64,000 nucleotides of DNA, taken from positions 62,001-126,000 of the forward strand of contig NZ_JZTW01000007.1 of NCBI RefSeq assembly GCF_000962805.1, read 5' to 3'. This DNA comes from Pseudarthrobacter chlorophenolicus. Lineage in GTDB: Bacteria; Actinomycetota; Actinomycetes; Actinomycetales; Micrococcaceae. The position numbers and the translations under genes are program-made. Under the pieces are notes generated by a model that was not told the origin of the DNA, did not search any database, and saw only the letters and a program-made list of their open reading frames with translations. This document shows, in pieces, positions 36,345 through 58,368 of this stretch. Every line of letters starts with the position of its first letter. The stretch's first letter is position 1.

Positions 36345-36933
36345 GGACCTTGTTCCCGGCGAACAGGTCATCGTCACCACCCGGCCGCAACCCAGGAAGC
36401 TGGCCGGGCCAGCCGCCGCTTTCATCTTGGCCCCCGCGGTGGCGGCGTTCGCGTCCGCCTGGATCGTGCGGGGGGAGGCACGGCGCCTGGTTCCGGCACT
36501 GGACGCCCGCTGGACCCCCTGGCTGGTGGCGGCCTGCGCCCTGGCTGCTGCGTGGGTGTGGCTGGGCTACTGCCTGCCGCGGCTGATGCGCTGGCACGCC
36601 ACACGCTATACCCTGACCAGCCGGCGGATGGTGGCCAGGTCCGGCACCTTCAGGAGGCGCGAACAGCAGGTCAACCTCCTCTCAGTCCGCAACCTCACAG
36701 TCCATGTGGGCGTGCTTCAACGCCTCCTGCGGTCCGGGAATATATCCTTGGAAACCGGGCATGAGGGCGTAACGACCTTTCGGGACGTGCCGGAGGCCGC
36801 CAAATTCCGGGATTTCATCCTCGACGCCATCGGGGAACTGCCCGATGAGCGCCTCCCGCCCGGAGAAGCAGGGGATTACCTTGCCGGAGCAGTGCCGATG
36901 GAAATGAGAGAAGGTGGATGGAATGAACGATGA
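36337..36933 (+). CDS. Bacterial PH-domain (YdbS-like) membrane protein
   Basis: A 198-residue protein with two membrane helices (about residues 23-44 and 62-85) and a bPH2 domain after them: RYTLTSRRMVARSGTFRRREQQVNLLSV is the characteristic segment, followed by SGNISLETG. PH-domain proteins of this type are membrane-anchored and of unknown role. The start overlaps the birA stop by 8 bp and its own end overlaps the cyclase gene by 11 bp, so birA, this gene and the cyclase are probably one transcript. Confidence 0.85.
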   Translation: MRKDLVPGEQVIVTTRPQPRKLAGPAAAFILAPAVAAFASAWIVRGEARRLVPALDARWTPWLVAACALAAAWVWLGYCLPRLMRWHATRYTLTSRRMVARSGTFRRREQQVNLLSVRNLTVHVGVLQRLLRSGNISLETGHEGVTTFRDVPEAAKFRDFILDAIGELPDERLPPGEAGDYLAGAVPMEMREGGWNER

Positions 36934-38047
36934 GGCCCAGCAGGAGCTCGTGGATCCCGTCGCGCCGTCCCCCGCCACTGACCCGCACCCTCCTACCGGA
37001 GCGATGTCCGCAGAGCGCCTGGCCATGAAAGCCCTCGAGACGCGGCTGCTCGGTGGCGAACGCAAGCTCCGCCGTCGTGAGGTGGCCGCAGGCGCAGGCC
37101 TGTCCCTGCTGTCCGCGCGCAAACTCTGGCGCGCCCTCGGGTTCCCGAACTTCGGCGACGAGGACGTTGCCTTCACCGAACGCGACCAGGCGGCACTGTC
37201 AACCGTGGTTGACCTGGTCCGCGGCGGAAAGCTGACCGAGGAAGCTGCCATTTCCGTCACCCGCGCCATCGGCCAGATGACGGACCGCATGGTGGTGTGG
37301 CAGATCGAAGCCCTGGTGGAGGACCTCGTCCACGAGCAGGGTGTCACCGATGCGGTCGCCCGCAAGCGGCTGGTCAACGAGCTCCCGGCCCTGGTTGATG
37401 CCCTCGAGGAAGTGCTGGTCTATTCGTGGCGGCGCCAGCTCAATGCCGGCATCCAGCGGCTGGCCGTCCGGGCCGAAGCCGGACTGCAGGCCAGCGAAGA
37501 AGGCCGCGAAGGCGACGAGGACGATGCGCCGTTGCCGCTGGCGCGGGCCGTGGGCTTCGCCGACCTGGTGTCCTACACCAGCCTCTCGCGCCGGATGAAC
37601 GAGAAGACCCTGGCCCGCCTGGTGCAGCGGTTCGAGAATAAATGCGCCGAGATAATTTCCGTTGGCGGTGGCCGCCTGGTCAAGACCGTGGGCGATGAAG
37701 TCCTCTACATCGCCGAGACCCCGGCGGCCGGCGCCGAGATCTCCCTCGCCTTGGCCCAGGCCTTCACGGAGGACGAGATCCTGCCCGAAGCCCGGGTAGC
37801 CATGGTGTGGGGCAGGATCCTGTCCCGGCTGGGCGACATCTACGGCCCCACCGTCAACCTCGCAGCGCGGCTCACCACCCTCGCCGATCCCGGTACTGTG
37901 CTGGTGGACTCCATGACCGCATCTGCCCTCGAACATGACGAACGGTTCGTCATGGTTCCCCAGCCGCCGGAAAACGTCCGCGGATTCGGCGAAATCAAGC
38001 CTGTCCGCCTGACGCGCGGTTTGGGCAAGGGCCTGATCGTCGACTGA
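36923..38047 (+). CDS. Class III adenylate cyclase with N-terminal regulatory domain
   Basis: The 374-residue product makes cAMP. An N-terminal helical domain (about residues 25-195) resembles the autoinhibitory domain of the mycobacterial Rv1264 cyclase, which responds to pH. The catalytic domain has the metal-binding Asp214 (FADLVSYT) and Asp258 (KTVGDEVLY), the Lys expected for ATP specificity just before it, and YGPTVNLAARL, which supplies the transition-state Asn and Arg. No membrane helix is visible. The ATG at 36923 is chosen because AGAAGG sits about 9 bases upstream; a GTG at 36914 abuts that site. Confidence 0.9.
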   Translation: MNDEAQQELVDPVAPSPATDPHPPTGAMSAERLAMKALETRLLGGERKLRRREVAAGAGLSLLSARKLWRALGFPNFGDEDVAFTERDQAALSTVVDLVRGGKLTEEAAISVTRAIGQMTDRMVVWQIEALVEDLVHEQGVTDAVARKRLVNELPALVDALEEVLVYSWRRQLNAGIQRLAVRAEAGLQASEEGREGDEDDAPLPLARAVGFADLVSYTSLSRRMNEKTLARLVQRFENKCAEIISVGGGRLVKTVGDEVLYIAETPAAGAEISLALAQAFTEDEILPEARVAMVWGRILSRLGDIYGPTVNLAARLTTLADPGTVLVDSMTASALEHDERFVMVPQPPENVRGFGEIKPVRLTRGLGKGLIVD

Positions 38048-38081: not shown

Positions 38082-38112
38082 TTGTCCATTTGATAGCTAG
38101 ACAGGCTATATT
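38082..38112 (+). promoter_or_regulatory. Candidate promoter of the giant surface-protein locus
   Basis: A TATATT box (38107-38112) lies 19 bp behind TTGTCC (38082-38087). It is the only AT-rich stretch between the cyclase stop and the giant gene and would give a leader of about 60 bases. Confidence 0.45.
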
Positions 38113-38177: not shown

Positions 38178-41100
38178 ATGAAACTTCGCGGACGAGCGCG
38201 GGCAAAAGCCGCTGCTGCACCCCGGCGCCGGCCCATTCTCCAGTCCCGCCTTTTCAGCACCTCCGCCATGGGGCTCGCCCTCGCCGCCCTCGTTGTTGGC
38301 GCAGTCGTTTATCCGGGGTTTAAGACCACTGAGGTGGAGTTGAATGACGGTGGTGTGTGGGTGGTGTCGAAGTCTAAGAATGCGGTGGGGCGGTTGAATT
38401 ATCCGTCGCGTGTGTTGGATGGTGCGGTGACTCCGGCGTCGTCGACGTTTGATATTTTGCAGGATGCCGGTGAGGTGTTTGTTGATGATGAGTCTGGTTC
38501 GACGTTGAATCAGGTGTCGCCGGCGAATATGCGTTTGGGTGGGGATAAGCAGTTGCCGGGGGCTGCGGATGTGAGTTTTGGGTCGTCGGTGTTGTCGGTG
38601 ACGGATGCGGCGTCGGGCAAGGTGTGGGCGGTGTCGCCGTCGACGGTGAATGGTTTTGATGAGGAAGCGTCGGAGCCGGTGTTGGTGGGTTCTGAGGGTA
38701 CGGTGTCGGCGGTGGGGGCTGATGATCGTATTTATTCGGCGGATCCGAAGGCCGGGACGGTGACGGTGACCGGTGTTGATGCCAATGGTGTGGTGGTGTC
38801 CTCGGATGCTGAGTCGTGGTCTGAGTTGAAGGGTGCGGGGGACCTGCAGATTTCGGTGGTGGGGGACCGGCCGGTGGTGTTGGATGCTGCGGCGGGGAAT
38901 TTGTTTTTGCCTGGTGGTAAGCGGTTGCAGTTGGCTGATGCGCGGGATGCGAAGTTGCAGCAGGGTGGTCCGGGCAGTGATTTTGTGGCGATTGCGACGC
39001 AGAAGGCGTTGTTGAAGCAGCCGTTGGATGGTGGGACGGCGAAGACGGTGTCGTTTGGTGGTGAGGGTGTTCCTGCGGCTCCGGTGCAGTTGGCCGGGTG
39101 TGTGCATGCGGCGTGGTCGGGGGCGAATAAGTATGTCCGTGATTGTGTCAATGATGCTGATGATAAGAACGTGGATGTGCCGAAGGCGAGTGCGTCGCCG
39201 TCGTATGTGTTTCGGGTGAACCGGGACCTGGTGGTCCTGAATGATGTGAATTCCGGGAATGTGTGGCTGGTGAACCAGAACATGCAGCTGGTCAACAACT
39301 GGGACGACGTTGTTCCCCCCAAGGAAACCTCGGACGACGCCGACAAGGACTCCGCCGACGAAGTCCAGCAGACAGTCCTCCCGGACCGCACCAAACCCAA
39401 CAGCCCGCCCGTCGCCCAGCCGGACAGCTACGGCGTCCGCGCCGGAAAGACCACCATCCTCCCGGTCCTGGATAACGACACGGACCCCGACGGTGACATC
39501 CTGACGGTGCGCCAGCCCGACGGGATCCGCCTCGGCGCAGTGTCCACTATTTACGGCAGCACGGGCTTCCAGGTCGCGGTTCCCGCCGACAAGACCGGCA
39601 GCGAATCGTTCAAATACACGGTGGACGACGGCCGCGGGCTCTCCGCCACAGCCGAAGTTTCGCTGCGCGTGGTTCCGCTGACGGAAAACAAGGCGCCGGC
39701 GCAGAAGCCGAACCGCGACACCACCATGGTGGTCCAGCAGGGCAAATCGGTCACCCGGAACATCCTTACGGACTGGATCGACCCCGACGGCGACGACCTC
39801 TACGCCACGTCGGTCTCCAGCCCCGACCCCCTTGACCAGGTCCGCATCCGTCCCGACGGGCAGCTCTCCTTCCAGGACAGCGGCACCTCACCGGGCCGCA
39901 AGGTCCTCACCGTGGGCATTTCCGACGGCCAGGCCACCACTGAAGGCCGGATCACGGTCGACGTCCGCCCCGCCGGGGCCCTCCCGCCCATCGCCAACGC
40001 AGACCATGTGGTGGCAGTCGCCGGGGCTCCGACCGTCATCGCACCACTCAAGAACGACATCGACCCCCAAGGCGGCGCGCTCCGCCTCGCCCAGGTGACC
40101 GCTGACGAGCAGTCCAGGGCAGTCATCGGCGCCGACCAGCAGACGTTCAGCTTCACCTCCGACGTGCCGGGACCGCACTACGTTGAGTACCTGGTAACTA
40201 ACGGGCCCGCCAGTGCAGTGCAGCTGGTCCGGGTCGACGTCGTTGCCGGCAACGACGCCGGAGCCCCCGTCGCGGTCCGCGACATTGCCCTGCTGCCTAC
40301 CGGCGGCAGCGTCCTCGTCGATGTGCTCGGCAACGACTCCGATCCCTCCGGCGGTGTCCTGGTGGTCCAGTCGGTGACCGCCGATTCCTCGCTGCCGGTC
40401 AGCGTGTCCGTCCTGGACCACTCGGTGGTCCGGATCACGGACCTTCGCGCCGAAGGCCAGCTGACGCTGAAGTACACCATCTCCAACGGCCGGTCTTCAG
40501 CGACCGGTGAGATCGCCGTCGTGGTGGTCCCGGCACCGACAAAGCTCCAGGCACCCCAGGCCAAGCCCGACGAAGCAACCGTCCGTGCCGGTGACGTGGT
40601 CTCCATCCCGGTGCTCGATAACGACACCGATCCCAACGGCGGCAAGCTGACCCTGGTGCCCGAGCTGGCCCAGGTCCCGGACGAAACCGACGGACGGACC
40701 TTCGTGGCCGGAGACCAGCTTCGCTTCATCGCCGGCTCCGAGGCCAAAACCGTCTACGCCATCTACAAAGTCCGCAACGAGTCCGGCCAGGTGGACTCCC
40801 AGCAGGTGACCATCCGTATCCTGGCGCGCGACGACGAACGCAACAGCCGCCCCGAACCGCGCAACCTCACCGGCCGCGTGGTGGCGGGCATGACCGTCAA
40901 GATCCCCGTGCCCCTGGACGGCATCGACGCCGACGGCGACTCGGTGCAGCTGATGGGAATCGACAAGGCAGCGGGCATGGGCACGGCGACCGTCCGCGAC
41001 GGCTACCTCGAATACACCGCCGCGGGCGACGCCGCCGGGACGGACACCTTCACCTACCGCGTTCGCGACCGGATTGGCGCAGAGAACACCGGCACCGTCA

Positions 41101-44100
41101 TTGTGGGCGTTGCACCGCCGGAAGCCATCAACCAGAACCCGATTGCCGTGGACGACGCCGTGGATGTCCGGCCGGGCAGGAACGTGGCCGTTGACGCGCT
41201 GGCCAATGATTCGGACCCCGACGGCGATCCCATCTCCCTGCTGACCGACGGTTTCGAAGCGCGGCCGGAGCTGAACGTGGAAGTTGCTGACGGCGCCAAG
41301 GTGCTCTTCACCGCACCGGCAGTGGAAGGCAACGAGAGCATCCGGTACCGCATCCAGGACGACAAGAAAGCCCAGGCCAGCGCCGTGATCCGGGTCCGGG
41401 TCAGCGCGGACGCGGAGCTGAAGCGTCCCATTGCCAAGGACGACAGGGTCACGCTTGCCGAAACCCTGGGTAAGACGGCCATCGACGTACCCGTCCTGAA
41501 GAACGACTCCGACCCCGACGGCGTGGCCTCCGAGCTGCAGATCAGCCTTCCGGATGGCAACCCCAACGCCCGCGTGGGCGGCTCAGGGAACGTGGTGGTC
41601 AACCTCACGCCCGAAGACCAGCTGATTCCCTACACGGTGACCGATACCGACGGCCTCACCGCAACGGCTGTGATCTGGGTCCCGGGCCAGGGAGCCCAGT
41701 ACCCCACGCTGTCCAACACCGAAACGGTGGAGGTCATGGCCGGGAAGGAAGTCACCCTGGACCTGGACGACTACGTCAGGGTGCGGGACGGCCGCCGGCC
41801 CAGGATCAGCGTTGCCGACTCCGTCAAGGTGCTGGGCGCCGCGCCGGACAACGTGATTGTTGGCGAAGGTGAAGGCCTCCGCTATGCGGCGCGGCCCGGT
41901 TACGCGGGGCCGGGCTCCATCACCTTCGAAGTCACCGACGGCTCCGGGCCCGACGATCCCGACGGACTGAAATCGACCCTGGTCATCATGACCAACGTGA
42001 TCCCGGACCCGGACGAGGCCAACACCCCGCCCACGTTCCGCGGGGCATCCCTGGACATTCCAAAGACGGAAACCGCCACACTGGACCTTGGCCCCCTCGC
42101 GGCCGACGTGGACGAGCGGGACCAGGGCAACCTCAAGTTCGCCCTCCAGGGCTCGCCGCCCCCGGGCTTCAGCGCAAGGCTCGACGGCACGGTCCTTAGC
42201 GTCAGCGCGGAAAACTCCGTAGGAGTCGGCGTGACGGGCAATATCCAGGCCACCGTGACCGACGGACGCTCACCCGCGGTGACGGCCACCATCCAGGTGC
42301 GGCATGTGGCCTCCAACCGCCCCATGCCCGTAGCCAACGACGACGTGGTGGAGAAAGCCAACGCTGGCCGTGCCGAGACGGTCAACGTCCTGGCCAACGA
42401 CGTCAACCCCTTCAGCGATACGCCGCTGAAGATCGTGGGCACCAGCGTCGAAACCGGTTCGGCCCAGGGCCAGCCCACCATCAACGGGGACTCCATCACC
42501 ATCACCCCGGCAGACGGGTTCAAGGGCGTCATGGTGGTCCGCTACACGATTGCCGACAAGACCGGTGACCTTTCCCGCCAGGTGGACGGCCGGGTCCGCC
42601 TCACTGTGCGCAGTGAACCCGACGCGCCGTCCGCCCCCTCGGCGACCGACGTCCGCAGCCGCACCGCGGTGCTCAAGTGGGCGCCGCCGTCGGACAATGG
42701 AGCGCCCATCACCGAGTACACGGTGGTATCCAACAACGGATTCCAGCAGAAGTGCCCCACCACCACGTGCACCCTCTCCGGCCTGACGAACAACGTGAAG
42801 TACGTCTTCACCGTCAAGGCAACCAACGAGGTGGGGGAGTCGCAGCCGTCACCGCAGTCGAACGAGATCCGGCCTGACGAGAAGCCCTCCCCGCCTGAAG
42901 CACCCAGCGTCAAAGCCGGCGACAAGAACATGGTCATCAACTGGCCCGCTGCCCGGACGGAAGGCTCCCCGGTCAAGCACTACAACCTGGAGATCTCGCC
43001 TCCGCCCGCCAACGGCGTCGCCGTCAAGAACGAGGTCGCAGGCCTTAATTACACGTGGACCGGGCTGACCAATGGCGTGAAGTACAAGGTGCGCGCCCAG
43101 GCCGTCAACGAGCTGGGCCCCTCCGATTGGGGTACCTATTCAGCCGAAGACAATCCGGCCGGCGTTCCGGCGGCCCCCGCCGCACCCACCTCCTCTGTGG
43201 CGTCGTCAGTGGGAACCCAGAACCAGCTGCGGGTGAACTGGGCTGAACCCAACACCAACGGTGACGCCATCAGCGCCTACCACGTCACGATGTCAGGCGG
43301 CGGCCGGCCCGCCCAGACGCAGACGATTCCAGGCACGGTCCGCAGCGCCAACTTCACGGCGGACAACTCCGAAGCCGCGTACACCTTCACCGTGCAGGCC
43401 GAGAACAAAGCAGGCAAGGGTGCAGTCAGCCCGCCCTCGGCTCCCCGCCGTGCCACAGGAAAGCTTGGGCAGGTTTCCGGCGTCAGCGCCACGCCGGCCA
43501 ACACCGGCGGTGCCGGCCGGTCGGTCACGGTCGACTTCCGGCGCCTGACGGCAGCCGAACGCAACGGCTCTGCCGAGAACGAGGTCAGTTACAGCTACAA
43601 CGCCAGCAATGGTGCCAGCGGCCCCATCAGCCCCGGCCAGACCATCGGCGGTTTCGCCAACGGCGCCCAGGTGAGCATCACTGTCATTGCCAATTCCTCC
43701 GTGGCCCCGAGCTCCAACGCCAGTGCCCCGGCGTCGGCAACGCCGTACGGATCCCCGGGCACGCCGTCTGCATCAGGACAGGACGGCGGCATCAACGACC
43801 AGTCCGTCACCCTGCGCTGGTCCTCGCCGTCCACGACTACGAATGACGTCGCGAGCACCAGGATCAGGATCAACGGCGGCGGCTGGGAGAACGTGGCAGC
43901 TTCGGGCAGCCGGACCATCAATACCGGTGGCTGGCAGCAGAGCCGCACCATCGAGGTCCAGACCCTGAATTCCGTGGGGACCGGAAGCGGTATTGCCACT
44001 GCCAGGGCGACGTCCGGCAAGCAGGGACTGTGGGAAACCCGGATCAAGACCTCGGATCCCAAGTTCGAGCGCAGCTGCACCTTCACCCGGGGCGGCTCGA

Positions 44101-44348
44101 ACTACCGGCCCACGCCCTACTTCACCTGCGATGGCGTCAGCGGCAACAACCCGCCCTGGTTCTACAAGTCCAGCCAGGACCGCATCATGGTGGCCTGCTA
44201 CATCGACCAGGACGACAACTGGTCCGGCAACGGCATCATCCGCTGGTGGCGGGTGGAGTCCGGCTCGGCACGCAACGTGGGCCGCTATGTGATCGCCGGG
44301 CACACCACGCTTCCGGACCCCGCAGGGCTTGGAGCACCCCCATGCTGA
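38178..44348 (+). CDS. Giant surface protein A: propeller-like domain, tandem Ig/cadherin-like modules, FN3 repeats
   Basis: A 2,056-residue type II membrane protein. A short basic N-terminus precedes one helix (about residues 27-46). Residues about 47-400 look like a beta-propeller (repeated WVVS, VWAVS, NVWLV strands; Cys pair GCVHAAW...RDC). About 11 modules of about 95 residues follow (residues 405-1480), most marked by a NDxDPDG calcium-type loop, then FN3-type modules (about 1480-1950) and a Cys-bearing C-terminal domain. There is no LPXTG. ATG at 38178 follows GGGGGGAA. Residues 45-381 are encoded by a block with no base difference from the next gene. It corresponds to the fn3 gene of the bifidobacterial PFNA cluster; adhesion or wall attachment is inferred. 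Confidence 0.85.
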   Translation: MKLRGRARAKAAAAPRRRPILQSRLFSTSAMGLALAALVVGAVVYPGFKTTEVELNDGGVWVVSKSKNAVGRLNYPSRVLDGAVTPASSTFDILQDAGEVFVDDESGSTLNQVSPANMRLGGDKQLPGAADVSFGSSVLSVTDAASGKVWAVSPSTVNGFDEEASEPVLVGSEGTVSAVGADDRIYSADPKAGTVTVTGVDANGVVVSSDAESWSELKGAGDLQISVVGDRPVVLDAAAGNLFLPGGKRLQLADARDAKLQQGGPGSDFVAIATQKALLKQPLDGGTAKTVSFGGEGVPAAPVQLAGCVHAAWSGANKYVRDCVNDADDKNVDVPKASASPSYVFRVNRDLVVLNDVNSGNVWLVNQNMQLVNNWDDVVPPKETSDDADKDSADEVQQTVLPDRTKPNSPPVAQPDSYGVRAGKTTILPVLDNDTDPDGDILTVRQPDGIRLGAVSTIYGSTGFQVAVPADKTGSESFKYTVDDGRGLSATAEVSLRVVPLTENKAPAQKPNRDTTMVVQQGKSVTRNILTDWIDPDGDDLYATSVSSPDPLDQVRIRPDGQLSFQDSGTSPGRKVLTVGISDGQATTEGRITVDVRPAGALPPIANADHVVAVAGAPTVIAPLKNDIDPQGGALRLAQVTADEQSRAVIGADQQTFSFTSDVPGPHYVEYLVTNGPASAVQLVRVDVVAGNDAGAPVAVRDIALLPTGGSVLVDVLGNDSDPSGGVLVVQSVTADSSLPVSVSVLDHSVVRITDLRAEGQLTLKYTISNGRSSATGEIAVVVVPAPTKLQAPQAKPDEATVRAGDVVSIPVLDNDTDPNGGKLTLVPELAQVPDETDGRTFVAGDQLRFIAGSEAKTVYAIYKVRNESGQVDSQQVTIRILARDDERNSRPEPRNLTGRVVAGMTVKIPVPLDGIDADGDSVQLMGIDKAAGMGTATVRDGYLEYTAAGDAAGTDTFTYRVRDRIGAENTGTVIVGVAPPEAINQNPIAVDDAVDVRPGRNVAVDALANDSDPDGDPISLLTDGFEARPELNVEVADGAKVLFTAPAVEGNESIRYRIQDDKKAQASAVIRVRVSADAELKRPIAKDDRVTLAETLGKTAIDVPVLKNDSDPDGVASELQISLPDGNPNARVGGSGNVVVNLTPEDQLIPYTVTDTDGLTATAVIWVPGQGAQYPTLSNTETVEVMAGKEVTLDLDDYVRVRDGRRPRISVADSVKVLGAAPDNVIVGEGEGLRYAARPGYAGPGSITFEVTDGSGPDDPDGLKSTLVIMTNVIPDPDEANTPPTFRGASLDIPKTETATLDLGPLAADVDERDQGNLKFALQGSPPPGFSARLDGTVLSVSAENSVGVGVTGNIQATVTDGRSPAVTATIQVRHVASNRPMPVANDDVVEKANAGRAETVNVLANDVNPFSDTPLKIVGTSVETGSAQGQPTINGDSITITPADGFKGVMVVRYTIADKTGDLSRQVDGRVRLTVRSEPDAPSAPSATDVRSRTAVLKWAPPSDNGAPITEYTVVSNNGFQQKCPTTTCTLSGLTNNVKYVFTVKATNEVGESQPSPQSNEIRPDEKPSPPEAPSVKAGDKNMVINWPAARTEGSPVKHYNLEISPPPANGVAVKNEVAGLNYTWTGLTNGVKYKVRAQAVNELGPSDWGTYSAEDNPAGVPAAPAAPTSSVASSVGTQNQLRVNWAEPNTNGDAISAYHVTMSGGGRPAQTQTIPGTVRSANFTADNSEAAYTFTVQAENKAGKGAVSPPSAPRRATGKLGQVSGVSATPANTGGAGRSVTVDFRRLTAAERNGSAENEVSYSYNASNGASGPISPGQTIGGFANGAQVSITVIANSSVAPSSNASAPASATPYGSPGTPSASGQDGGINDQSVTLRWSSPSTTTNDVASTRIRINGGGWENVAASGSRTINTGGWQQSRTIEVQTLNSVGTGSGIATARATSGKQGLWETRIKTSDPKFERSCTFTRGGSNYRPTPYFTCDGVSGNNPPWFYKSSQDRIMVACYIDQDDNWSGNGIIRWWRVESGSARNVGRYVIAGHTTLPDPAGLGAPPC
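38310..39322 (+). repeat. 1,013-bp direct repeat, copy 1
   Basis: Matches 44620-45632 with no difference that I could find, at an offset of 6,310 bp and in the same reading frame. The first 100 codons contain 3 ending in C and none ending in A, against 21 of 44 ending in C in the codons just before. Codon style returns to normal near 39225, about 95 bp before the identity ends. Confidence 0.95.
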
Positions 44349-44511
44349 CGCGCCAAAATCATGAAGGCGCAGGTCAGCGCCGGGGGCACCGCTACCCATC
44401 GCGGACCCTTGCACCGTTGGGTAGGCTTGCGCGGGGAACAGAGAGCCCGGTACCGGGTTTTTGGGGATTTCGGCCGGGGGGCCGCCGCACTACTGAGGGA
44501 AGCAAATCGCT

Positions 44512-47500
44512 GTGACAAGTCTGCTGGGGAAACTTGGGCTCAAACGGCGCCACAAGAAGATCGTCACCGGCACAGCCTTCGCCGCTGCCGTGGCCGTCGT
44601 GGCGACCGGTGCCGTGCTCTATCCGGGGTTTAAGACCACTGAGGTGGAGTTGAATGACGGTGGTGTGTGGGTGGTGTCGAAGTCTAAGAATGCGGTGGGG
44701 CGGTTGAATTATCCGTCGCGTGTGTTGGATGGTGCGGTGACTCCGGCGTCGTCGACGTTTGATATTTTGCAGGATGCCGGTGAGGTGTTTGTTGATGATG
44801 AGTCTGGTTCGACGTTGAATCAGGTGTCGCCGGCGAATATGCGTTTGGGTGGGGATAAGCAGTTGCCGGGGGCTGCGGATGTGAGTTTTGGGTCGTCGGT
44901 GTTGTCGGTGACGGATGCGGCGTCGGGCAAGGTGTGGGCGGTGTCGCCGTCGACGGTGAATGGTTTTGATGAGGAAGCGTCGGAGCCGGTGTTGGTGGGT
45001 TCTGAGGGTACGGTGTCGGCGGTGGGGGCTGATGATCGTATTTATTCGGCGGATCCGAAGGCCGGGACGGTGACGGTGACCGGTGTTGATGCCAATGGTG
45101 TGGTGGTGTCCTCGGATGCTGAGTCGTGGTCTGAGTTGAAGGGTGCGGGGGACCTGCAGATTTCGGTGGTGGGGGACCGGCCGGTGGTGTTGGATGCTGC
45201 GGCGGGGAATTTGTTTTTGCCTGGTGGTAAGCGGTTGCAGTTGGCTGATGCGCGGGATGCGAAGTTGCAGCAGGGTGGTCCGGGCAGTGATTTTGTGGCG
45301 ATTGCGACGCAGAAGGCGTTGTTGAAGCAGCCGTTGGATGGTGGGACGGCGAAGACGGTGTCGTTTGGTGGTGAGGGTGTTCCTGCGGCTCCGGTGCAGT
45401 TGGCCGGGTGTGTGCATGCGGCGTGGTCGGGGGCGAATAAGTATGTCCGTGATTGTGTCAATGATGCTGATGATAAGAACGTGGATGTGCCGAAGGCGAG
45501 TGCGTCGCCGTCGTATGTGTTTCGGGTGAACCGGGACCTGGTGGTCCTGAATGATGTGAATTCCGGGAATGTGTGGCTGGTGAACCAGAACATGCAGCTG
45601 GTCAACAACTGGGACGACGTTGTTCCCCCCAAAAACGAATCCGACGAGCAGGACCAGGAATCCGCGGATATCAACACCATCAACGTGTTGCCGGACCGCA
45701 CCAAACCGAACCGTCCGCCGGAAACCAAGCCCGACGTCGTCGGCGTCCGTCCGGGCCGCACCACCATCCTGAGCGTCCTGGACAATGATTCCGATCCCGA
45801 CGGCGACGTCCTCACCGCCGGGCTCCAGGGCAACCCGCCGAAGGCAGGGACGCTGGAGAACATCTACGGCGGCACCGCCTTCCAGATCTCCGTGCCGGCC
45901 GACGCCAGGCCAGGCACGGAAACGTTCAGCTACTCGGCGTCCGACGGCCGTGGCCTCTCCGCCACGGGACAGGTCACCCTCAACGTGGTGGGCCCGGACC
46001 AGAACAAGCCACCGCAGTTCAAACGCGGCGAGAACACCACCATGCTGGTGGAACAGGGCAAGACCGTGAGCCAGAACATCCTGACGGACTGGGTGGACCC
46101 CGACGGCGATGACCTGGTGCTCCTTGACGCCAAGGCCGACAACGAGCAGGACCAGGTGAAGGTCCGCCGCGACGGCCTGCTCACTTTCCAGGACTCCGGC
46201 GCCACCTCCGGCAAGAAGAACGTTGAGGTGACCATCTGGGACGGCCGCGACACCGTTACCGGCAAGGTGGTCATCAACGTCCAGCCGCCCGGTGCCCTCG
46301 CACCGGTAGTCAACGCTGACCATGTCACAGCCGTAGTGGGCCAGGACCTGGTGATCTCGCCGCTGAAGAATGACGTGGACCCCAACGGCGGCGCGCTCCG
46401 CCTCGCCCAGGTGGAAGCGAACGGCCCCGCCGATCTCGGCCCCGTGACAGACGGCGGAACCTTCACTTTCCGCAGCACCACGCCAGGTCCCGTCTACCTC
46501 ACGTACATCGCCAGCAACGGCCCGCAGAGCAGCCAGGGCCTGATCCGCGTGGATGTGGAGTCCGGTGACGATCCCGGCGACCCCGTTGCCGTACACGACG
46601 TCGCCCTCATGCCCACCGGCGGAAGCGTCCTGCTGGACCCGCTGGCCAATGACTCCGACCCCTCCGGCGGGGTCCTGGTGCTGCAATCCGTGAAACTTCC
46701 GGAGAACGCCACCGTCTCAGTCAGCGTGATCAACCACAGCGTCCTGCGCATCACGGACATCCTCGGTACCAAGGACCCGATCCTCTTCGAATACACCATG
46801 TCCAACGGCAAGAAGTCGGCCACCGGTTCGGTCTCCGTGGTACCCGTCCCGGCACCGGCCGTGGTGGAAGCACCCCAGCCCAAGCCGGACGAGGTCAACG
46901 TCCGCGTCAACGACGTCGTTACCATCCCCGTGCTGGACAACGACACGCACCCGCAGGGCCAGGAACTGACCGTCGACCCGGTCCTGCCGCAGGGCGTGGA
47001 CCCGGTTGACGGCAAGAGTTTCGTCTCGGAGAACACCGTCCGGTTCATCGCCGGCAGCCAGCCAAAGACGGTCCGCGCCATCTACAACGCGGTGGACCCG
47101 CAGGGCCAAAAGAGTGCCGCCGCCGTCACCATCCACATCCTCCCGCTGGAAGGCGCGGAGAATTCCCGCCCGCAGCCGCGCAACCTGACGGCCCGCGTGG
47201 TGGCAGCCGCGACCGTCCGCATTCCGGTGCCGCTGGACGGCATCGATCCTGACGGCGACTCGGTCCAGCTCACCGGCATCGACAGCACTCCCGCCATGGG
47301 TACGGCGACGGTGGGCAGCAACTTCATCGACTTCACGGCTGCAGGTGACGGCGCCGGGACCGATACCTTCCGCTACAAGGTGGTGGACCGGCAGGGTGCC
47401 GTCAATACGGGCACCGTAACTGTCGGCATCGCGCCGCGCGGTGAAATCAACCAGAATCCCACTCCCGTGGACGACGAGGTGCGGGTCCGCCCCGGCCGCC

Positions 47501-50500
47501 AGATCGCCGTCGACGCCACCGGCAACGACACCGATCCCGACGGCGACCAGATCCGCATCCTCACCGACGGCATCGAGGCTGATCCTGCCCTCCAGGCCAC
47601 CGTCAGCAAGACCAGCGGACGGGTCATCCTGACCGCCCCCAACGAGGCCGGGACGGTCAATGTCCGGTATACCGTGGCCGATGACCGGGACGCCCGGGCG
47701 CAGGCCACCATACGCGTGGTGGTGGACCCGGAGGTCCCGCTCAAGGCACCTATCGCCCGCGACGACCGGGTCACGTCCGCCCAGACCATGGGCAAGACCG
47801 CCGTGGACGTTCCTGTCCTGAAAAACGACGAAGACCCCGACGGCGTGGGCGAAAACCTGAAGATCAGCACCGAGGCAACCACGGCCCGGCCTGGCGCCGA
47901 AGGCAACATGATCGTTGACCTCACCGAGCAGCCGCAGCTCATCCCGTACACCGTGGAGGACGTTGACGGCCAGAAGTCCACCGCCATCATCTGGGTTCCC
48001 GGCCTCGGCCAGCAGGTTCCCACTTTGGCAAAGGACGAGGTCCTGGAAGTGGTGGCGGGACAGACCGTCAATGTTGACCTGGACGAATGGGTCAAGGTCC
48101 GGGAAGGCCGCTCACCGCGCCTGACGCAGGCGGACCGGATCAAGCTCATCGGAGCCGACGGCAGCGACCCCGTCACCGGTGACGGCACGGGACTGAAGTA
48201 CACCGCAGGCACTGACTACGTGGGTCCGGGTTCACTGACCTTCGAAGTCACCGACGGCACCGGACCGGACGATCCCGCCGGCCTGAAGTCGACGCTCAGC
48301 ATCCGCACCAAGGTCCTTCCGGACCCCAACAAGAACAACCCGCCTGAACTCCTGGGCGCGAAGGTCGAGGTGCCCATGGGCGACTCGGCAAGCATCGACC
48401 TGGGAAGGCTGACCTCGGACCCCGACGGGGACGACGTGGACAACATGAAGTACGAGCTGGTGGGCGGCGGTGCCGCCGGTTTCAACGCGAGCGTGGACGG
48501 CAAGAACCTCAAAGTCTCCGCGGCGGACTCCAGCCGGGCCGGCACCGCCGGTGCCGTTCAGGTCAAGGCCAGGGACCCGCGCGGCCTGGAAGCCACGGCC
48601 ACGTTCCAGCTGTCCGTGACGGCATCCAACCGGCCCAAACCGGTAGCCAACGACGACGTTGAACCCAACGCCGCCGCCGGCAAGCCCGTCACCATCAACG
48701 TTCTGGCCAACGACGCCAACCCGTTCCCCGAGACGGCGCTGAAGATCATTGCCGCGGCTACCGAGACCGGCAGCGGCAACGTTGAAGTGAACGGCGATTC
48801 GGTGACGGTCACACCCGCTCCCGGTTTCACCGGGACCATGGTGGTCACCTACACGGTGGAAGACAAGACCCAGGACGCATCGCGGCACGCCACGGCACGC
48901 GTCCGGCTGACCGTTAAGGACGCGCCGGCGGCCCCCACCACGCCGCAGGCGCAGAGCGTGGGGGACCGGACGGCACTGCTGACCTGGGCCGCTCCCGCGG
49001 ACCGCGGTTCACCCATCACCAGTTACACCGTGTACGGCGAGGGCGGGTTCAAGCAGGACTGCCCGGCCAACACCTGCACGCTGAACGGGCTGGTCAACAA
49101 CACGAAGTACCACTTCCAGGTCACCGCCACCAACGAGTTCGGCGATTCGGACCGTTCGCCGGCTTCGGCCGAGGTACGGCCGGACGTCAAGCCGGACACC
49201 CCGCTGGCGCCGTCGCTGAAGTTCGGCGACAAGGAACTGTCCATCAACTGGACTGCTCCTGCCAGCAAGGGCTCGCCGGTGAAGTCCTACGACTTGGAAA
49301 TCTCGCCGCCGCCCGCGGGGCAGAACGCCCAGATCCAGAACCTGACCGCTGTCAGCTATGTCTGGAAGGGCCTGCAGAACGGCGTGTCCTACAAGGTGCG
49401 GGTCCTGGCCCGGAACGACGCCAAGGAACCGTCCGAGTGGAGCCCGTACTCTGCGGCTGAAGTACCTGCCGGCGTGCCGGCGACGCCGGCCGCACCGTCA
49501 GCAGTGCAGGCGCAGCCTCTCGGCAGCGAAAGCCAGATGAAAGTTTCTTGGACAGCTCCGAATAACAACGGGGACGCCATTTCCGCTTACACCCTGACCA
49601 CCCTGCGGGGCGGTGCGGTGGTTGCCACCCAGCCGGTGGCCGGTACCTCGCAAAACGTGACAGTGGATAACTCCGAGGCCAATTACACCTTCACGGTTTC
49701 TGCAACCAACAAGGCAGGTACCAGCGCAACCGGGGCTGAGTCGGCGCCGGTGCGGGCTGCCGGGAAGCCCGGGCAGGTCAACAGCGGATCTGTGAAGGCG
49801 ACCGGAACCAGCGGCCAGCTGGAGGTCACCTTCACTCCGCTGAGTGATGCCCAACGCAACGGATCGACCGCATCCGAGATCACCTACTCGTACAACGCCG
49901 ATGGCAGGAGCGGGGCGATCAATGCAGGGGGTGGAACTATCGGCGGCATGACCAACGGCAGGGACATCACTGTCACGATCATTGCCCGGTCAACCAAGAA
50001 CAACATGGCCGGCGACGCTAAAGCCATCGGCAGCGGTAACCCTTACGGACCTCCCAACGCACCGAATGTGGACGGCAGGACATCTGCAAAGGGCGATGGA
50101 GATGTCCACTGGACGTGGAATGATCCCGCCACGAACGGACGGGCGCTCAGCCACTACGAGGTCAGTTATGAGGGCGGAGGCTGGATCAACGTAGGCAAGG
50201 CCAACCGCTATGACCGAGCCGCCGGAGGCTGGAATCAGTCCCGACAGCTAAAGGTCCGCGCGGTAACTGTGGTGCCAGGTCCGGCCGGCTCCGCAACGTC
50301 GAAGTCCGGTGACAACCCGACCCCGCCGCCGCCAACCTCGTGGAGCATCACGGCCACCCCGACCCGCAGCTGCACGGAGCCCCGCAAGGGTACGGACAGC
50401 TTTGTGGCCGGCAACCCGTCGCAGTGCAACGGGGCAGGCAAATGGCTGGACGCCGGCGCTCCGGCGGACACGGACAGGTACCAGGTTTGGTACAAGACGT

Positions 50501-50619
50501 CGAACAACCCGAGCGGCATCTGGTATCACCTCACCAGCGGCATGGCCGCCGGGAACTGGATCCGCTGCGATACGTCCAGCCGCGGCTGCAACCCGCCCGC
50601 CGGGATGCCCAACGGCTAG
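44512..50619 (+). CDS. Giant surface protein B, tandem paralogue of A
   Basis: A 2,035-residue paralogue of the preceding gene with the same plan: basic N-terminus (KLGLKRRHKK), one helix (about residues 17-38), the propeller-like domain (residues 37-374 the same as protein A), about 11 Ig/cadherin-like modules matching those of A one for one, FN3-type modules from about residue 1465, and a different Cys-bearing C-terminus (SWSITATPTRSC start). The GTG start follows GAGGGA at a longish distance. The distal part is clearly diverged from A, so the duplication is old even though the block is unchanged. A hairpin separates it from moxR. Confidence 0.85.
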   Translation: MTSLLGKLGLKRRHKKIVTGTAFAAAVAVVATGAVLYPGFKTTEVELNDGGVWVVSKSKNAVGRLNYPSRVLDGAVTPASSTFDILQDAGEVFVDDESGSTLNQVSPANMRLGGDKQLPGAADVSFGSSVLSVTDAASGKVWAVSPSTVNGFDEEASEPVLVGSEGTVSAVGADDRIYSADPKAGTVTVTGVDANGVVVSSDAESWSELKGAGDLQISVVGDRPVVLDAAAGNLFLPGGKRLQLADARDAKLQQGGPGSDFVAIATQKALLKQPLDGGTAKTVSFGGEGVPAAPVQLAGCVHAAWSGANKYVRDCVNDADDKNVDVPKASASPSYVFRVNRDLVVLNDVNSGNVWLVNQNMQLVNNWDDVVPPKNESDEQDQESADINTINVLPDRTKPNRPPETKPDVVGVRPGRTTILSVLDNDSDPDGDVLTAGLQGNPPKAGTLENIYGGTAFQISVPADARPGTETFSYSASDGRGLSATGQVTLNVVGPDQNKPPQFKRGENTTMLVEQGKTVSQNILTDWVDPDGDDLVLLDAKADNEQDQVKVRRDGLLTFQDSGATSGKKNVEVTIWDGRDTVTGKVVINVQPPGALAPVVNADHVTAVVGQDLVISPLKNDVDPNGGALRLAQVEANGPADLGPVTDGGTFTFRSTTPGPVYLTYIASNGPQSSQGLIRVDVESGDDPGDPVAVHDVALMPTGGSVLLDPLANDSDPSGGVLVLQSVKLPENATVSVSVINHSVLRITDILGTKDPILFEYTMSNGKKSATGSVSVVPVPAPAVVEAPQPKPDEVNVRVNDVVTIPVLDNDTHPQGQELTVDPVLPQGVDPVDGKSFVSENTVRFIAGSQPKTVRAIYNAVDPQGQKSAAAVTIHILPLEGAENSRPQPRNLTARVVAAATVRIPVPLDGIDPDGDSVQLTGIDSTPAMGTATVGSNFIDFTAAGDGAGTDTFRYKVVDRQGAVNTGTVTVGIAPRGEINQNPTPVDDEVRVRPGRQIAVDATGNDTDPDGDQIRILTDGIEADPALQATVSKTSGRVILTAPNEAGTVNVRYTVADDRDARAQATIRVVVDPEVPLKAPIARDDRVTSAQTMGKTAVDVPVLKNDEDPDGVGENLKISTEATTARPGAEGNMIVDLTEQPQLIPYTVEDVDGQKSTAIIWVPGLGQQVPTLAKDEVLEVVAGQTVNVDLDEWVKVREGRSPRLTQADRIKLIGADGSDPVTGDGTGLKYTAGTDYVGPGSLTFEVTDGTGPDDPAGLKSTLSIRTKVLPDPNKNNPPELLGAKVEVPMGDSASIDLGRLTSDPDGDDVDNMKYELVGGGAAGFNASVDGKNLKVSAADSSRAGTAGAVQVKARDPRGLEATATFQLSVTASNRPKPVANDDVEPNAAAGKPVTINVLANDANPFPETALKIIAAATETGSGNVEVNGDSVTVTPAPGFTGTMVVTYTVEDKTQDASRHATARVRLTVKDAPAAPTTPQAQSVGDRTALLTWAAPADRGSPITSYTVYGEGGFKQDCPANTCTLNGLVNNTKYHFQVTATNEFGDSDRSPASAEVRPDVKPDTPLAPSLKFGDKELSINWTAPASKGSPVKSYDLEISPPPAGQNAQIQNLTAVSYVWKGLQNGVSYKVRVLARNDAKEPSEWSPYSAAEVPAGVPATPAAPSAVQAQPLGSESQMKVSWTAPNNNGDAISAYTLTTLRGGAVVATQPVAGTSQNVTVDNSEANYTFTVSATNKAGTSATGAESAPVRAAGKPGQVNSGSVKATGTSGQLEVTFTPLSDAQRNGSTASEITYSYNADGRSGAINAGGGTIGGMTNGRDITVTIIARSTKNNMAGDAKAIGSGNPYGPPNAPNVDGRTSAKGDGDVHWTWNDPATNGRALSHYEVSYEGGGWINVGKANRYDRAAGGWNQSRQLKVRAVTVVPGPAGSATSKSGDNPTPPPPTSWSITATPTRSCTEPRKGTDSFVAGNPSQCNGAGKWLDAGAPADTDRYQVWYKTSNNPSGIWYHLTSGMAAGNWIRCDTSSRGCNPPAGMPNG
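44620..45632 (+). repeat. 1,013-bp direct repeat, copy 2
   Basis: Second copy of 38310-39322. It starts at a codon boundary (residue 37 of protein B), so recombination between copies would keep the frame. Confidence 0.95.
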
Positions 50620-50668: not shown

Positions 50669-50716
50669 ACAGACTGAAACCCACCCTTGGAACTGAGAAG
50701 AAGGAAGAACCACCCC

Positions 50717-51688
50717 ATGACGATGACCAGCGAGCAGGCCGCGTGGTTTGCCGATACGTTCGAAAAGCTCGTTGCCAACGTGGGGCAGGCGGTGCTGGGT
50801 AAGGAACACGTCATCCGGCTGACCTTCACCGCGATGCTGGCCGAGGGCCACGTCCTGTTCGAGGACGCCCCCGGAACGGGTAAGACCTCCCTGGCACGTG
50901 CGCTGGCCGCCACGGTCCAGGGCTCAAACAACCGCATCCAGTTCACCCCTGACCTCCTGCCCTCGGACGTCACCGGCGTGACCATCTACGACCAGAAGAC
51001 GCAGAAGTTCGAGTTCCACAAGGGCCCGATCTTCAACAACATTGTCCTCGCCGACGAAATCAACCGTGCGTCGCCGAAGACCCAGTCCGCGCTTCTCGAG
51101 GTCATGGAAGAATCCCGGGTCACCGTGGACGGCGTCACCTACTCCGCCGGCCGCCCGTTCATGGTGATGGCCACCCAGAACCCGATCGAACAGGCCGGCA
51201 CCTACCGCCTGCCGGAAGCACAGCTGGACCGCTTCCTGATCAAGACGTCCATCGGGTACCCGGACCACGCGTCCACTGTCCGGCTGCTGGGCGGCTCCAA
51301 CCTCAAGGACCGTTCCAAGGAACTGTCCGCCGTCATCACCACGCAGGCTGTGGCCGACATGGCCGACCATGCCGCCACCGGACACGTGGACACCGCAGTC
51401 CTCGAGTACATCTCCCGGCTGTGCGAGGAAACCCGCAACGCCCCGGAAACCCGGCTGGGCGTCTCGGTCCGCGGCGCCCTCGCCATGGTCCGCGCCGCGA
51501 AGGTCTGGGCAGCCTCGCAGGGCCGCAACTTCGTCCTGCCGGACGACATCAAGGAACTCGCCCCGGTGGTGTGGACCCACCGCTTCGTGATGGACCCCGA
51601 AGCCGAGTTCTCCGGAGCGACGCCCGAGGCCGTGCTTGCGCGGATCCTCGCAGACGTGGCAGCCCCGCAGCAGCGCACCAACGCCTGA
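50717..51688 (+). CDS. moxR: MoxR-type AAA+ ATPase
   Basis: The 323-residue protein has Walker A PGTGKTS (about residue 58), Walker B IVLADEINRA, the sensor segment MATQNPIEQAGTYRLPEAQLDRF and the C-terminal lid domain. MoxR ATPases act as chaperones in assembling or activating protein complexes and typically pair with DUF58 proteins, as here. The start is MTMTSEQ (ATG 50717) with AAGGAAG upstream; a GTG- or ATG-like start 10 codons earlier has no support. It heads the coupled downstream genes. Confidence 0.95.
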   Translation: MTMTSEQAAWFADTFEKLVANVGQAVLGKEHVIRLTFTAMLAEGHVLFEDAPGTGKTSLARALAATVQGSNNRIQFTPDLLPSDVTGVTIYDQKTQKFEFHKGPIFNNIVLADEINRASPKTQSALLEVMEESRVTVDGVTYSAGRPFMVMATQNPIEQAGTYRLPEAQLDRFLIKTSIGYPDHASTVRLLGGSNLKDRSKELSAVITTQAVADMADHAATGHVDTAVLEYISRLCEETRNAPETRLGVSVRGALAMVRAAKVWAASQGRNFVLPDDIKELAPVVWTHRFVMDPEAEFSGATPEAVLARILADVAAPQQRTNA

Positions 51689-51738
51689 TTAGCAGGCCCG
51701 GCACGTCCTCCACTTCCAGCAACAACGAAGGCACACAT

Positions 51739-53070
51739 ATGTCCACCGGCACCCCGCTGACCCGGCTCACGGAGCGTCTCAAGCAACCCTTCCACCGGGA
51801 CGGCAGGCCCACCCGCCTGCACCCGTCGGCGGTCTGGGCCGAGGCAAGCTCCACCGCGGGCCTTGCCCTGGCACCGGCCTGGCGCACCGTCCGGAAGACG
51901 TGGCTGACCTACGTGTGGCCGGTGCTTTCCGTGGTCAGCGTGCTGGGATGGTCCGTCCTTGCAGCCACCATCCTGCTCTGGTGGGCAGGATCGGCCTACG
52001 GCTGGCAGGAAGCGAAGGCCGCCGCCGTGGCGGCCTTCGTCATGTTCCTCATCGCCGTGTGCTTCATCCTGGGCCGTTCCACCTACGGGGTGGTCCTGGA
52101 CCTGGCACGGACCCGCGTGGCGGTGGGGGACAGCGCCGTGGGAAGCATCGCCGTCACCAACACGTCCAGCCGGCCGCTGCTGCCGGCATCGGTCGAACTG
52201 CCCGTGGGCGGCGTCACCGCCGTCTTCCACCTGCCCCGCATGAAGCCCCAGCAGGTCCACGAAGACCTCTTCACCATTCCGACGGCCCGCCGCGCCGTGA
52301 TCGTGGTGGGTCCGGTCCGTTCCGTCCGTGCCGACCCGCTGCACCTGCTGCGCCGGCAGGTCCTGTGGACCGAGCCAGAGGACCTCTTCGTCCACCCGCG
52401 CACGGTGGCGCTGGCGGGCTCAGCCGCCGGGTTCATCCGCGACCTTGAAGGCATGCCCACCACGGAACTGTCCAGCGCCGATGTGTCCTTCCACGCCCTC
52501 CGCGATTACGTCCCGGGCGATGACCGGCGGCACATCCACTGGAAGACCACCGCACGGACCAACAAACTGATGGTCCGCCAGTTCGAGGAAACCCGCCGGG
52601 CCCACCTCGCCATCGCCCTGTCCATCAACACCGATGAATACGCTTCGGAGGACGAGTTCGAGATGGCCATCTCGGCGGCCGCCTCGATCGGCCGCCAGGC
52701 CATCCGCGAGCAGCGCGAGCTGGACGTCCTGACGCAAAAGGGGCCGCTGCGCTGCGAAACCGGCCGCAACATGCTCGATGACATGACCCGGATTGTCGGC
52801 ACCCCGATGCGCCGCACCGCCGTCGACCTCGCCCGTACTTTGGCAGACACCGTCCCCAACGCCTCCGTGGTGTTCTTCGTGGTGGGCAGCAACGTGACAG
52901 CCACCCAGCTTCGTTCCGCCGCAGCGTCCGTTCCGCCGGGCGTCCGCAGCCTCGCCGTCAGGGTCGAGGCAGGGGCCGCGTCCAGCAGGGCCAACATCGC
53001 AGATCTCACCGTGCTGACCGTCGGCGACCTCGCCGATCTCGGCATCGTCCTCCGAAAGGCGGCAGCATGA
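51739..53070 (+). CDS. DUF58 membrane protein, MoxR partner
   Basis: A 443-residue protein with two membrane helices (about residues 53-75 and 88-105), a beta-sandwich, then the DUF58 core with the classic ALRDYVPGDDRRHIHWKTTAR motif and a degenerate von Willebrand A-like tail. It is the usual partner of MoxR. The ATG at 51739 follows GAAGG by about 8 bases, although the frame is open from 51421 inside moxR. It overlaps the next gene in ATGA. Precise function is unknown; an envelope-complex assembly role is inferred from context. Confidence 0.92.
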   Translation: MSTGTPLTRLTERLKQPFHRDGRPTRLHPSAVWAEASSTAGLALAPAWRTVRKTWLTYVWPVLSVVSVLGWSVLAATILLWWAGSAYGWQEAKAAAVAAFVMFLIAVCFILGRSTYGVVLDLARTRVAVGDSAVGSIAVTNTSSRPLLPASVELPVGGVTAVFHLPRMKPQQVHEDLFTIPTARRAVIVVGPVRSVRADPLHLLRRQVLWTEPEDLFVHPRTVALAGSAAGFIRDLEGMPTTELSSADVSFHALRDYVPGDDRRHIHWKTTARTNKLMVRQFEETRRAHLAIALSINTDEYASEDEFEMAISAAASIGRQAIREQRELDVLTQKGPLRCETGRNMLDDMTRIVGTPMRRTAVDLARTLADTVPNASVVFFVVGSNVTATQLRSAAASVPPGVRSLAVRVEAGAASSRANIADLTVLTVGDLADLGIVLRKAAA

Positions 53071-57367: not shown

Positions 57368-58368
57368 ACCAACAGCCCGCCAGTGTTCCCCCCACCACGC
57401 AGCCGGGCCCGGGCCTGAGCCTCAACTGCGGCTACGGAACGGACCGGGGACTCCGCCGCGAGCTGAATGAGGATTCCTTCATCGCGTCGGACCCGGTCTT
57501 CGCCGTTGCCGACGGCATGGGCGGCCATGAGGCCGGCGAGATTGCCAGCGGCATGTGCGTCAGGACCCTGGCAGCGATTCCGCAGCTGTCCACGGGGGAC
57601 CGGAGCGTCACGGCCGCGGTCCTGCAGCAGTACCTGCTGCGCGCGGACAACTCCATCAGGGAAGCCACGGGTGCCCGGGCGGGAACCACGCTGACCGGAG
57701 CGGTAGTGGTGGAACAGATGGGCATGCCGTACTGGCTGGTCATGAACATCGGCGACTCCCGGACCTACCGCCTCAGCCAGGGCCGGTTCGAGCAGATCAG
57801 CGTGGACCACTCGGAAGTCCAGGAACTCGTGGACGCCGGCGAAATCACGCCCCAGCAGGCCACCGTGCATCCCCGCCGCCATGTGGTCACCAGGGCGCTG
57901 GGCACCGGGGACGAAACCGAAGCGGACTACTGGCTGCTTCCGGTGGAGGAGGGGGACCGGGTGATGGTCTGCTCCGATGGCCTCACCTCCGAACTGACGG
58001 ACGAGCACATCCACCGCATCCTCAGCACGGCCGGCCACCCGCAGGACGCCGTTGATGCCCTCATCCAGGCTGCGCTGCGCAGCGGCGGGCGGGACAACAT
58101 CACGGTGATTGTGGTGGACGCCCGCAACGTCCTGAACGACGCCGGCGCCGCCACTACGGCTCCACGGCGCGACCCGTCCGCTGAAGACGAGGACACATTG
58201 CCCCGCGGACAGGCACCGCAGGCCACAACCCAGCCTCTTCCGCAACAGCAGGACAACTCTGAGCAGGAAAACCCTGCGGTGCAGGAAACCCCTGCAGGGC
58301 AGGAGAAAGCGGGGCACGAACCCGCTGCAGGCCAGGATCCCGACGACGGCACGGAGGCCCCGCGATGA
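57364..58368 (+). CDS. PP2C-family Ser/Thr protein phosphatase
   Basis: A 334-residue PPM phosphatase that reverses Ser/Thr phosphorylation using two metal ions. Motifs in order: DRGLRRELNEDSF, VADGMGGHEAG (metal Asp and Gly), MNIGDSRTYRL, MVCSDGLTSEL and GGRDNITVIVV. The last 70 residues are Pro/Gln/Glu-rich and low in complexity. There is no membrane helix, so it is cytoplasmic. It is coupled to its neighbours by ATGA overlaps on both sides and is the natural opponent of the kinase two genes downstream. Confidence 0.95.
   Translation: MNQQPASVPPTTQPGPGLSLNCGYGTDRGLRRELNEDSFIASDPVFAVADGMGGHEAGEIASGMCVRTLAAIPQLSTGDRSVTAAVLQQYLLRADNSIREATGARAGTTLTGAVVVEQMGMPYWLVMNIGDSRTYRLSQGRFEQISVDHSEVQELVDAGEITPQQATVHPRRHVVTRALGTGDETEADYWLLPVEEGDRVMVCSDGLTSELTDEHIHRILSTAGHPQDAVDALIQAALRSGGRDNITVIVVDARNVLNDAGAATTAPRRDPSAEDEDTLPRGQAPQATTQPLPQQQDNSEQENPAVQETPAGQEKAGHEPAAGQDPDDGTEAPR

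Follow-up and report, generated by a model that had tools for sequence, protein, structure and literature searches.

How can two giant genes that have clearly diverged still share more than a thousand bases without a single difference? The question is raised by a 64,000-nucleotide stretch of Pseudarthrobacter chlorophenolicus (NZ_JZTW01000007.1, positions 62,001 to 126,000; hereafter the window), in which gene 1 (38178–44348, about 2,056 amino acids) and its paralogue gene 2 (44512–50619, 2,035 amino acids, GTG start) lie in tandem on the forward strand, as do all features described here. Both proteins have the same module order, namely a short tail, a hydrophobic segment, the shared block with its predicted beta-propeller, a series of Big_9/cadherin-like repeats (9 and 10 Big_9 stretches in the two proteins) and three Fn3 domains; the tail and the single hydrophobic segment were read from the sequence and are not the output of a predictor.

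The block adjoins the hydrophobic segment. Its copy 1 (38310–39322) and copy 2 (44620–45632) are identical over exactly 1,013 bases at an offset of 6,310, as the original prediction, made from the letters alone, had claimed. They form the sole exact direct repeat of at least 40 bases in the window and the sole direct repeat of at least 60 bases across the first 220 kb of their contig, and a genome-wide DNA search with the block returned these two places and no third copy. The accompanying claim that the other parts of the genes have clearly diverged, with module order unchanged, is borne out: outside the block, identity is mostly 50–77% and lower towards the C-terminal ends, and both block edges are abrupt. 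The bodies, or arms (39323–44348 in gene 1, 45633–50619 in gene 2), are 61.9% identical, with 46% identity at four-fold degenerate sites. As set out below, the block is very probably maintained by long-lasting interlocus gene conversion limited to one beta-propeller domain, and the case in the window is no isolated accident.

Concerted evolution of one domain

We fetched 40 tandem pairs, the highest-ranking entries when loci were listed by similarity to the window. Leaving out L065 (100 Ns) and L066 (a frameshifted gene 2) and adding the window gave 39 usable pairs, here called clade A, which underlie the identities, block and body trees, site patterns, edges and clade A comparisons of arms with flanks (L and G numbers are our handles for loci and genomes). 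With 34 further pairs (L167–L170, L204–L230 and L231–L233) they form a set of 73 pairs from the genus.

Within clade A, the two block copies of one genome are on average 96.4% identical (91.8% at four-fold sites), whereas blocks of different genomes are 83% identical whether gene 1, gene 2 or one of each is compared (about 0.64 at four-fold sites). The bodies are 63% identical between the two genes and 78% and 82% identical between orthologues. Accordingly, the block tree unites the two copies of a genome as sisters in 35 of 39 cases (the exceptions are L045, L047, L053 and L063), while in the body tree copies are sisters in none of the 39, all gene 1 bodies being separate from all gene 2 bodies. 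Individual sites give the same picture. Between the window and L033, its nearest fetched relative, the block holds 16 genome-specific sites present in both copies, no gene-specific site and 3 others. Across all 741 genome pairs, the block carries a mean of 130.9 genome-specific and 1.21 gene-specific sites, and in the body the proportion is reversed, with 13.3 genome-specific against 170.5 gene-specific per 1,011 sites. Agreement between imperfect copies is moreover patchy, since agreeing stretches exceed those in shuffles in 16 of the 23 testable pairs, each with at least 8 mismatches (p<0.05). Paralogues within a genome are thus closer than orthologues, silent sites are homogenised and part-converted pairs contain patchy tracts, as expected of concerted evolution. 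The comparison with orthologous loci that the original prediction had called for therefore finds copies alike within genomes and unlike between them, which strongly supports its suggestion of recurrent conversion.

Homogenisation is not universal in the genus. By block identity, the 73 pairs comprise 31 at 97% or more (three at 100%), 10 at 87–97%, two at 78% and 30 below 70%. The low group includes clade B, 27 genomes grouped by low block identity and by similarity, three of which were placed in a tree with clade A. In clade B, four-fold identity between the copies is 0.35–0.51 in the blocks (27 genomes) and 0.37–0.43 in the bodies of the three genomes measured. The suggestion that the block had moved in after the duplication fails here, because related lineages hold a collinear, diverged propeller at the same place in both genes. 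The division into gene 1 and gene 2 bodies also extends to three genomes of a second genus (L145–L147), in a tree that drew on 19 of the 39 clade A pairs; the fourth genome there, L144, has two gene 1-like bodies.

The edges of the homogenised segment were compared in the 36 pairs whose best segment is more than 90% identical. In 35 of them, the 3' edge departs from that of the window by no more than 12 bases, the exception being L041, which has an indel. The 5' edge is 43–63 bases further upstream than in the window in 22 pairs, within 27 bases in 13, and 123 bases upstream in L049, whose gene 1 thereby bears a gene 2-type tail. Since conversion reaches only to the end of the match between the genes, the diverged arms set its edges and stay apart.

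Single-copy loci of the same genus add a further line of evidence. Among 33 such loci, the body is that of gene 2 in 32 and that of gene 1 in one (L196); the upstream type could not be read in L195 and L197. In six of the 33 (L173, L174, L175, L176, L187 and L201), gene 1 upstream DNA and tail are joined to a gene 2 body, which is the product expected from a crossover between the blocks.

Taken together, the locus would be an old tandem pair of surface-protein genes in which a shared propeller is kept identical by repeated interlocus gene conversion. The conversion would proceed by homologous recombination of the direct repeats, which lie 6.3 kb apart, for example between sister chromosomes, and mostly without crossover; an occasional crossover at the same homology would delete 6.3 kb and leave one fused gene. 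We infer that RecA-type recombination performs the conversion.

A G+T bias at silent sites

The block also differs from its surroundings in silent composition. At four-fold sites, both copies in the window have A 0.00, C 0.08, G 0.70 and T 0.22, giving a G+T of 0.92, and inside the blocks the GC skew is about +0.46 and the AT skew about -0.33. Both bodies have C 0.49–0.54 and G 0.32–0.34, neighbouring genes are C-rich as well, and 150 genes picked on the same contig set a four-fold G+T background of 0.44 (standard deviation 0.066; the picks were heuristic, and the top outlier outside the block, at 0.72, may be in a wrong frame). Maximum-likelihood segments of extreme G+T run from 38309 to 39272 in gene 1 (silent third positions 0.932 inside, 0.370 outside) and from 44622 to 45582 in gene 2 (0.931 and 0.412), each beginning no more than 2 bases from its block start and stopping 50 bases short of the block end. 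Between 36,900 and 52,000, G-quadruplex motifs were absent from the coding strand and had four starts on the other strand, none within a block, and the Escherichia coli Chi octamer is absent from block 1.

Across the 73 pairs, block identity and four-fold G+T are correlated (Spearman 0.82, and 0.55 when restricted to the 39 clade A pairs). Mean G+T is 0.85 in pairs at 97% identity or more, 0.76 at 87–97% and 0.41 below 70%, with 0.43 in the bodies. Two-fold sites are biased too: in gene 1 of clade A, T/(T+C) is 0.61 in the block against 0.13 in the body, and G/(G+A) is 0.96 against 0.71.

Other lineages extend the association beyond the propeller. In genome G379 (L148), from another genus of the same family, the identical tract measures 5,006 bases, and G+T stays at 0.52–0.92 along it and then drops, while five diverged pairs of that genus (L150, L246, L249, L250 and L258) have normal composition. 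In G662 (L253), from another family, identity between the copies is patchy and high G+T falls mostly in the same patches (rho 0.69 over 40 windows of 50 codons, reached by none of 39 circular shifts and none of 2,000 permutations). The pair L256 of genome G903 is mostly 80–98% identical through its first 1,700 codons. Outside clade A as a whole, mean G+T is 0.75 in the 29 windows with at least 95% identity and 0.46 in the 336 windows below 80%. The bias thus tracks the homogenised tract and not the domain, covering 1 kb here, 5 kb in the other genus and patches in the other family. The diverged group lacks it, former pairs mostly show it in weaker form, and some homogenised tracts are without it. 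Among the former pairs, all six fusion loci retain a G+T of 0.75–0.87, and the other 27 single-copy loci of the window's genus average 0.64 (range 0.32–0.87). The G+T bias therefore looks like a footprint of conversion, with exceptions.

Several observations weigh against this account of conversion and its footprint. Pairs inside one clade do not count as independent, conversion showed no direction (705 against 663 odd sites), and a few differences between the window's own copies could be hidden by assembler collapse. Some homogenised tracts lack the bias: the copies of L144 are 98–99% identical yet have a G+T of about 0.58, L159 is identical over its first 100 codons yet at 0.48 there, and the block of L162 is 87% identical with normal composition (rho -0.20). 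Such tracts may be recent. Conversely, the diverged pairs L149 and L251 of the G379 genus have raised G+T in gene 1 alone, and in L256 it is raised mainly in the second copy (rho 0.24); L149 and L251, together with L247, a single-copy gene of the G379 genus that also has raised G+T, are possibly relics of past conversion. Within single pairs, rho is 0.50 in L148 and 0.36 in L245, each value being reached by 2 of 38 shifts. Over all 448 windows outside clade A, rho is just 0.22, and 17 of the 29 high-identity windows come from one genome. New differences confined to one copy number 60 from K to M and 63 from M to K (K, G or T; M, A or C) and give no pointer to mutation over biased repair. Fixed differences (415 K to M, 245 M to K) would run opposite to a fixation bias towards G+T, but in the gene 2 body, serving as the control, changes from the commoner to the rarer class likewise predominate, as they normally do (1203 M to K, 831 K to M).

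In the preferred reading, a strand-asymmetric silent change, in which A and C of the coding strand would yield to G and T, either results from long conversion or sustains it. The bias could stem from repeated damage or biased repair of a single-stranded coding strand (C to T or G, A to G), with the single-stranded phase perhaps arising in R-loops or recombination intermediates. Homogenised tracts without bias exist, so the bias would arise after conversion, not before it; that conversion causes the bias we nevertheless rate at about even odds. RecA and Rad51 bind GT repeat sequence preferentially according to PMC5948810, a preference that would allow a self-reinforcing loop. A stronger version, in which conversion is inherently strand-asymmetric, drives silent sites to G+T until A is nearly gone and feeds itself through the recombinase's preference, is put forward tentatively, as somewhat less probable than even. 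If it is true, the composition of a tract records how long it has been converting.

The opposite order, in which the bias is the cause, was also considered: recombinases would pair G+T-rich DNA best, or a G-rich coding strand would form R-loops, making the block a hot spot of conversion. Bias and homogenisation do co-occur in several lineages, and the same recombinase preference also fits this order. However, L144 and the start of L159 are homogenised without bias, so conversion can proceed in its absence, and the fused single-copy genes retain the bias. We regard the bias as an unlikely cause, though one that deserves serious attention.

The gene 1 arm and other accounts of the identity

The arm of gene 1 has a history of its own. 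In clade A, distances between gene 1 bodies barely track (rho 0.16) those of the flanking genes, a cyclase-like gene upstream (36914–38047) and a MoxR-type AAA ATPase gene downstream (50687–51688), whereas gene 2 bodies do (0.80). The signal shifts at the 3' edge of block 1, and a flank-like signal is back in the gene 2 leader. Strong splits contradicted by the flanks number 17 of 28 for the gene 1 body and 5 of 28 for the gene 2 body, or 19 of 28 and 5 of 27 with other body limits. As an example, L041 and L052 share 5 kb of gene 1 at 95.9% identity, with most surrounding windows at 75–92%. Six close pairs have gene 1 arms that are distant from each other. Among them, similarity is lost 100–190 bases past block 1 in four and upstream of block 1 in two; it returns no more than 150 bases from the gene 1 stop in four and only near block 2 in two. 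Clade B behaves likewise: across 24 of its 27 loci (three lack cyclase sequence), 9 of 19 strong splits are contradicted by the flanks for the gene 1 arm and 5 of 18 for the gene 2 arm. The phylogeny of the gene 1 arm is unrelated to that of the operon flanks, as if the arm were exchanged between species, while the gene 2 arm mostly follows them.

It could then be that the arm is a mobile cassette which enters by recombination at the block and so keeps the blocks alike, and both its history, unlike that of the operon, and the change of signal at the 3' edge of block 1 would fit. Nevertheless, the discordance is independent of homogenised blocks, because clade B shows it too with blocks that are not homogenised; this also leaves unsupported the idea that homogenisation is a condition for exchange of the arm. 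Insertion of the arm as a Campbell-type circle is likewise disfavoured, as the leader between the arm and block 2 goes with gene 2 and not with the arm. We consider a cassette of this kind improbable, and repeated conversion remains the preferred explanation for the likeness of the blocks.

An assembly artefact, in which a short-read assembler wrote one copy twice, has to be considered because the genome is a draft of 41 contigs, both copies lying on one of them (G000:C39). It is contradicted as a general account by single-contig assemblies of other species (L034, L035, L044, L050, L061, L064 and L231), in which the blocks are 97.8–99.9% identical with few differences. In several other drafts, contigs terminate just within the block, which is typical of assemblers at exact repeats. 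We therefore hold this account to be very improbable, and give no better chance to selection that, acting without recombination, favours identical propellers or some codon or RNA feature within the block. Between the two genes, conservation is indeed higher in the propeller than in the arms, diverged pairs included, but the excess of four-fold agreement within over between genomes is beyond the reach of protein-level selection, clade B lives with diverged propellers, and in G379 the bias covers most of the arm. Independent recent whole-gene duplications in each species would likewise yield similarity within genomes, and L144 indicates that new duplication or replacement does occur, but for the window's genus they are refuted by the clean split of bodies in 39 of 39 genomes, a split common to L145–L147, and their probability is negligible.

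Fold, neighbours and related systems

That the block covers a whole propeller-like domain, as originally suggested, is supported by fold prediction of moderate quality. Pfam gave no match for the window's block copy, and a profile search found no convincing solved structure. The block model has a predicted local distance difference test score of 62.6 and a predicted template modelling (TM) score of 0.65, residues 1–89 and 301–353 being poor. With Foldseek, the best match was the NHL domain of TRIM71 (E 5.8e-7, TM only about 0.4), and Mycobacterium tuberculosis PknD was also listed; with VIA, the best match had Z 14.3 and a root-mean-square deviation of 4.0 over 225 aligned positions. By their labels, most of the listed matches are NHL, WD40, designed or lyase propellers. 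The block is thus a predicted beta-propeller, with moderate similarity to solved propellers.

The start of gene 1 was set at the likely ATG at 38178, which has a G-rich stretch 5' of the codon and at whose equivalent place L033 shows MKFRGRARAK; the longest open frame begins at 38112. The upstream neighbour resembles adenylate/guanylate cyclases. Beyond the MoxR gene, the rest of the operon-like run (51421–62248, frame starts unrefined) encodes DUF58, a TgpA-like transglutaminase, an RDD/zinc ribbon protein, PP2C, an FHA-ended protein and a Ser/Thr kinase (60443–62248). A promoter and terminator scan did no better than shuffles (1 against 1.3, and 12 against 9.3, standard deviation 2.9).

Matches were present in 156 of 198 genomes sampled from the genus, 102 of 245 from the family, 170 of 297 from the order and 24 of 246 from the class; these surveys are samples made with differing queries, an alignment being used for order and class. 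A plasmid collection gave a single match, 68% identical, in Arthrobacter sp. StoSoilB13. Elsewhere in the genome, a distant paralogue (about 46% to the query) occurs in G002, G128, G168 and others that have one copy near the query's similarity level, and in L066, L149, L155 and L248 at least one tandem gene is apparently broken by frameshifts or stops.

Long-term concerted evolution of prokaryotic paralogues is already known, and conversion confined to one domain, with one edge fixed, is a variation on it. PMC6053082 describes 26 genes, including tuf, that evolve in concert by gene conversion, with fla and mtrA as tandem cases. As there, paralogues of one genome are closer than orthologues over a long time; unlike the cases described there, here conversion concerns one domain of a giant gene, with a fixed 3' edge, an escaped group and a strand-biased tract. 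In the open-access literature, we found no paper tying a coding-strand silent G+T bias to converted paralogues, which is a weak absence. The bab and hom genes of Helicobacter pylori are comparable, by description and not by sequence, as paralogous surface proteins with gene conversion that contain converted as well as diverged segments. To our knowledge, no strand-asymmetric composition accompanies them.

The gene order recalls the PFNA cluster of bifidobacteria, which comprises an fn3 gene, a MoxR ATPase, DUF58 and a transglutaminase along with kinase and FHA genes (PMC8430577, PMC6803598) and which is called unique to bifidobacteria (PMC8430577) and reported to be free of recombination in the sequences examined and to lack orthologues in other organisms (PMC6803598). 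The window has the same order of fn3-type, MoxR, DUF58 and transglutaminase genes, the fn3 likeness being one of domain content. However, the cluster as described begins with the pkb2 kinase, whereas here the kinase is downstream, a cyclase is upstream and two fn3-type genes stand in tandem. From 35436 to 64000, the window thus holds a PFNA-like run, including PP2C, FHA and kinase genes, outside bifidobacteria. In the MoxR-vWA-beta-propeller ternary conflict system, as described in PMC7159879, the propeller is fused to the vWA component, while here it is fused to Ig-like/Fn3 repeats; the window's MoxR protein passes the bpMoxR cut-off (5.1e-11) and matches AAA_3 far better (1.2e-62). A diversity-generating retroelement, with its adenine-specific differences between two repeat copies, does not fit: the window copies are identical, and differences newly arisen in relatives fall among T>C, C>T, G>A, G>T, C>G and A>G. 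No reverse transcriptase match emerged from a scan of 19 window proteins.

With homogenised, diverged and former, now single, pairs in many species, the block is a clean natural experiment. If the bias is a footprint of conversion, converted tracts would be detectable from one copy, and the process would expose or repair one strand unevenly; if instead the bias drives conversion, silent sites could set where genes stay alike. In the pair, one surface protein keeps a constant base while the arm of its partner follows its own history.

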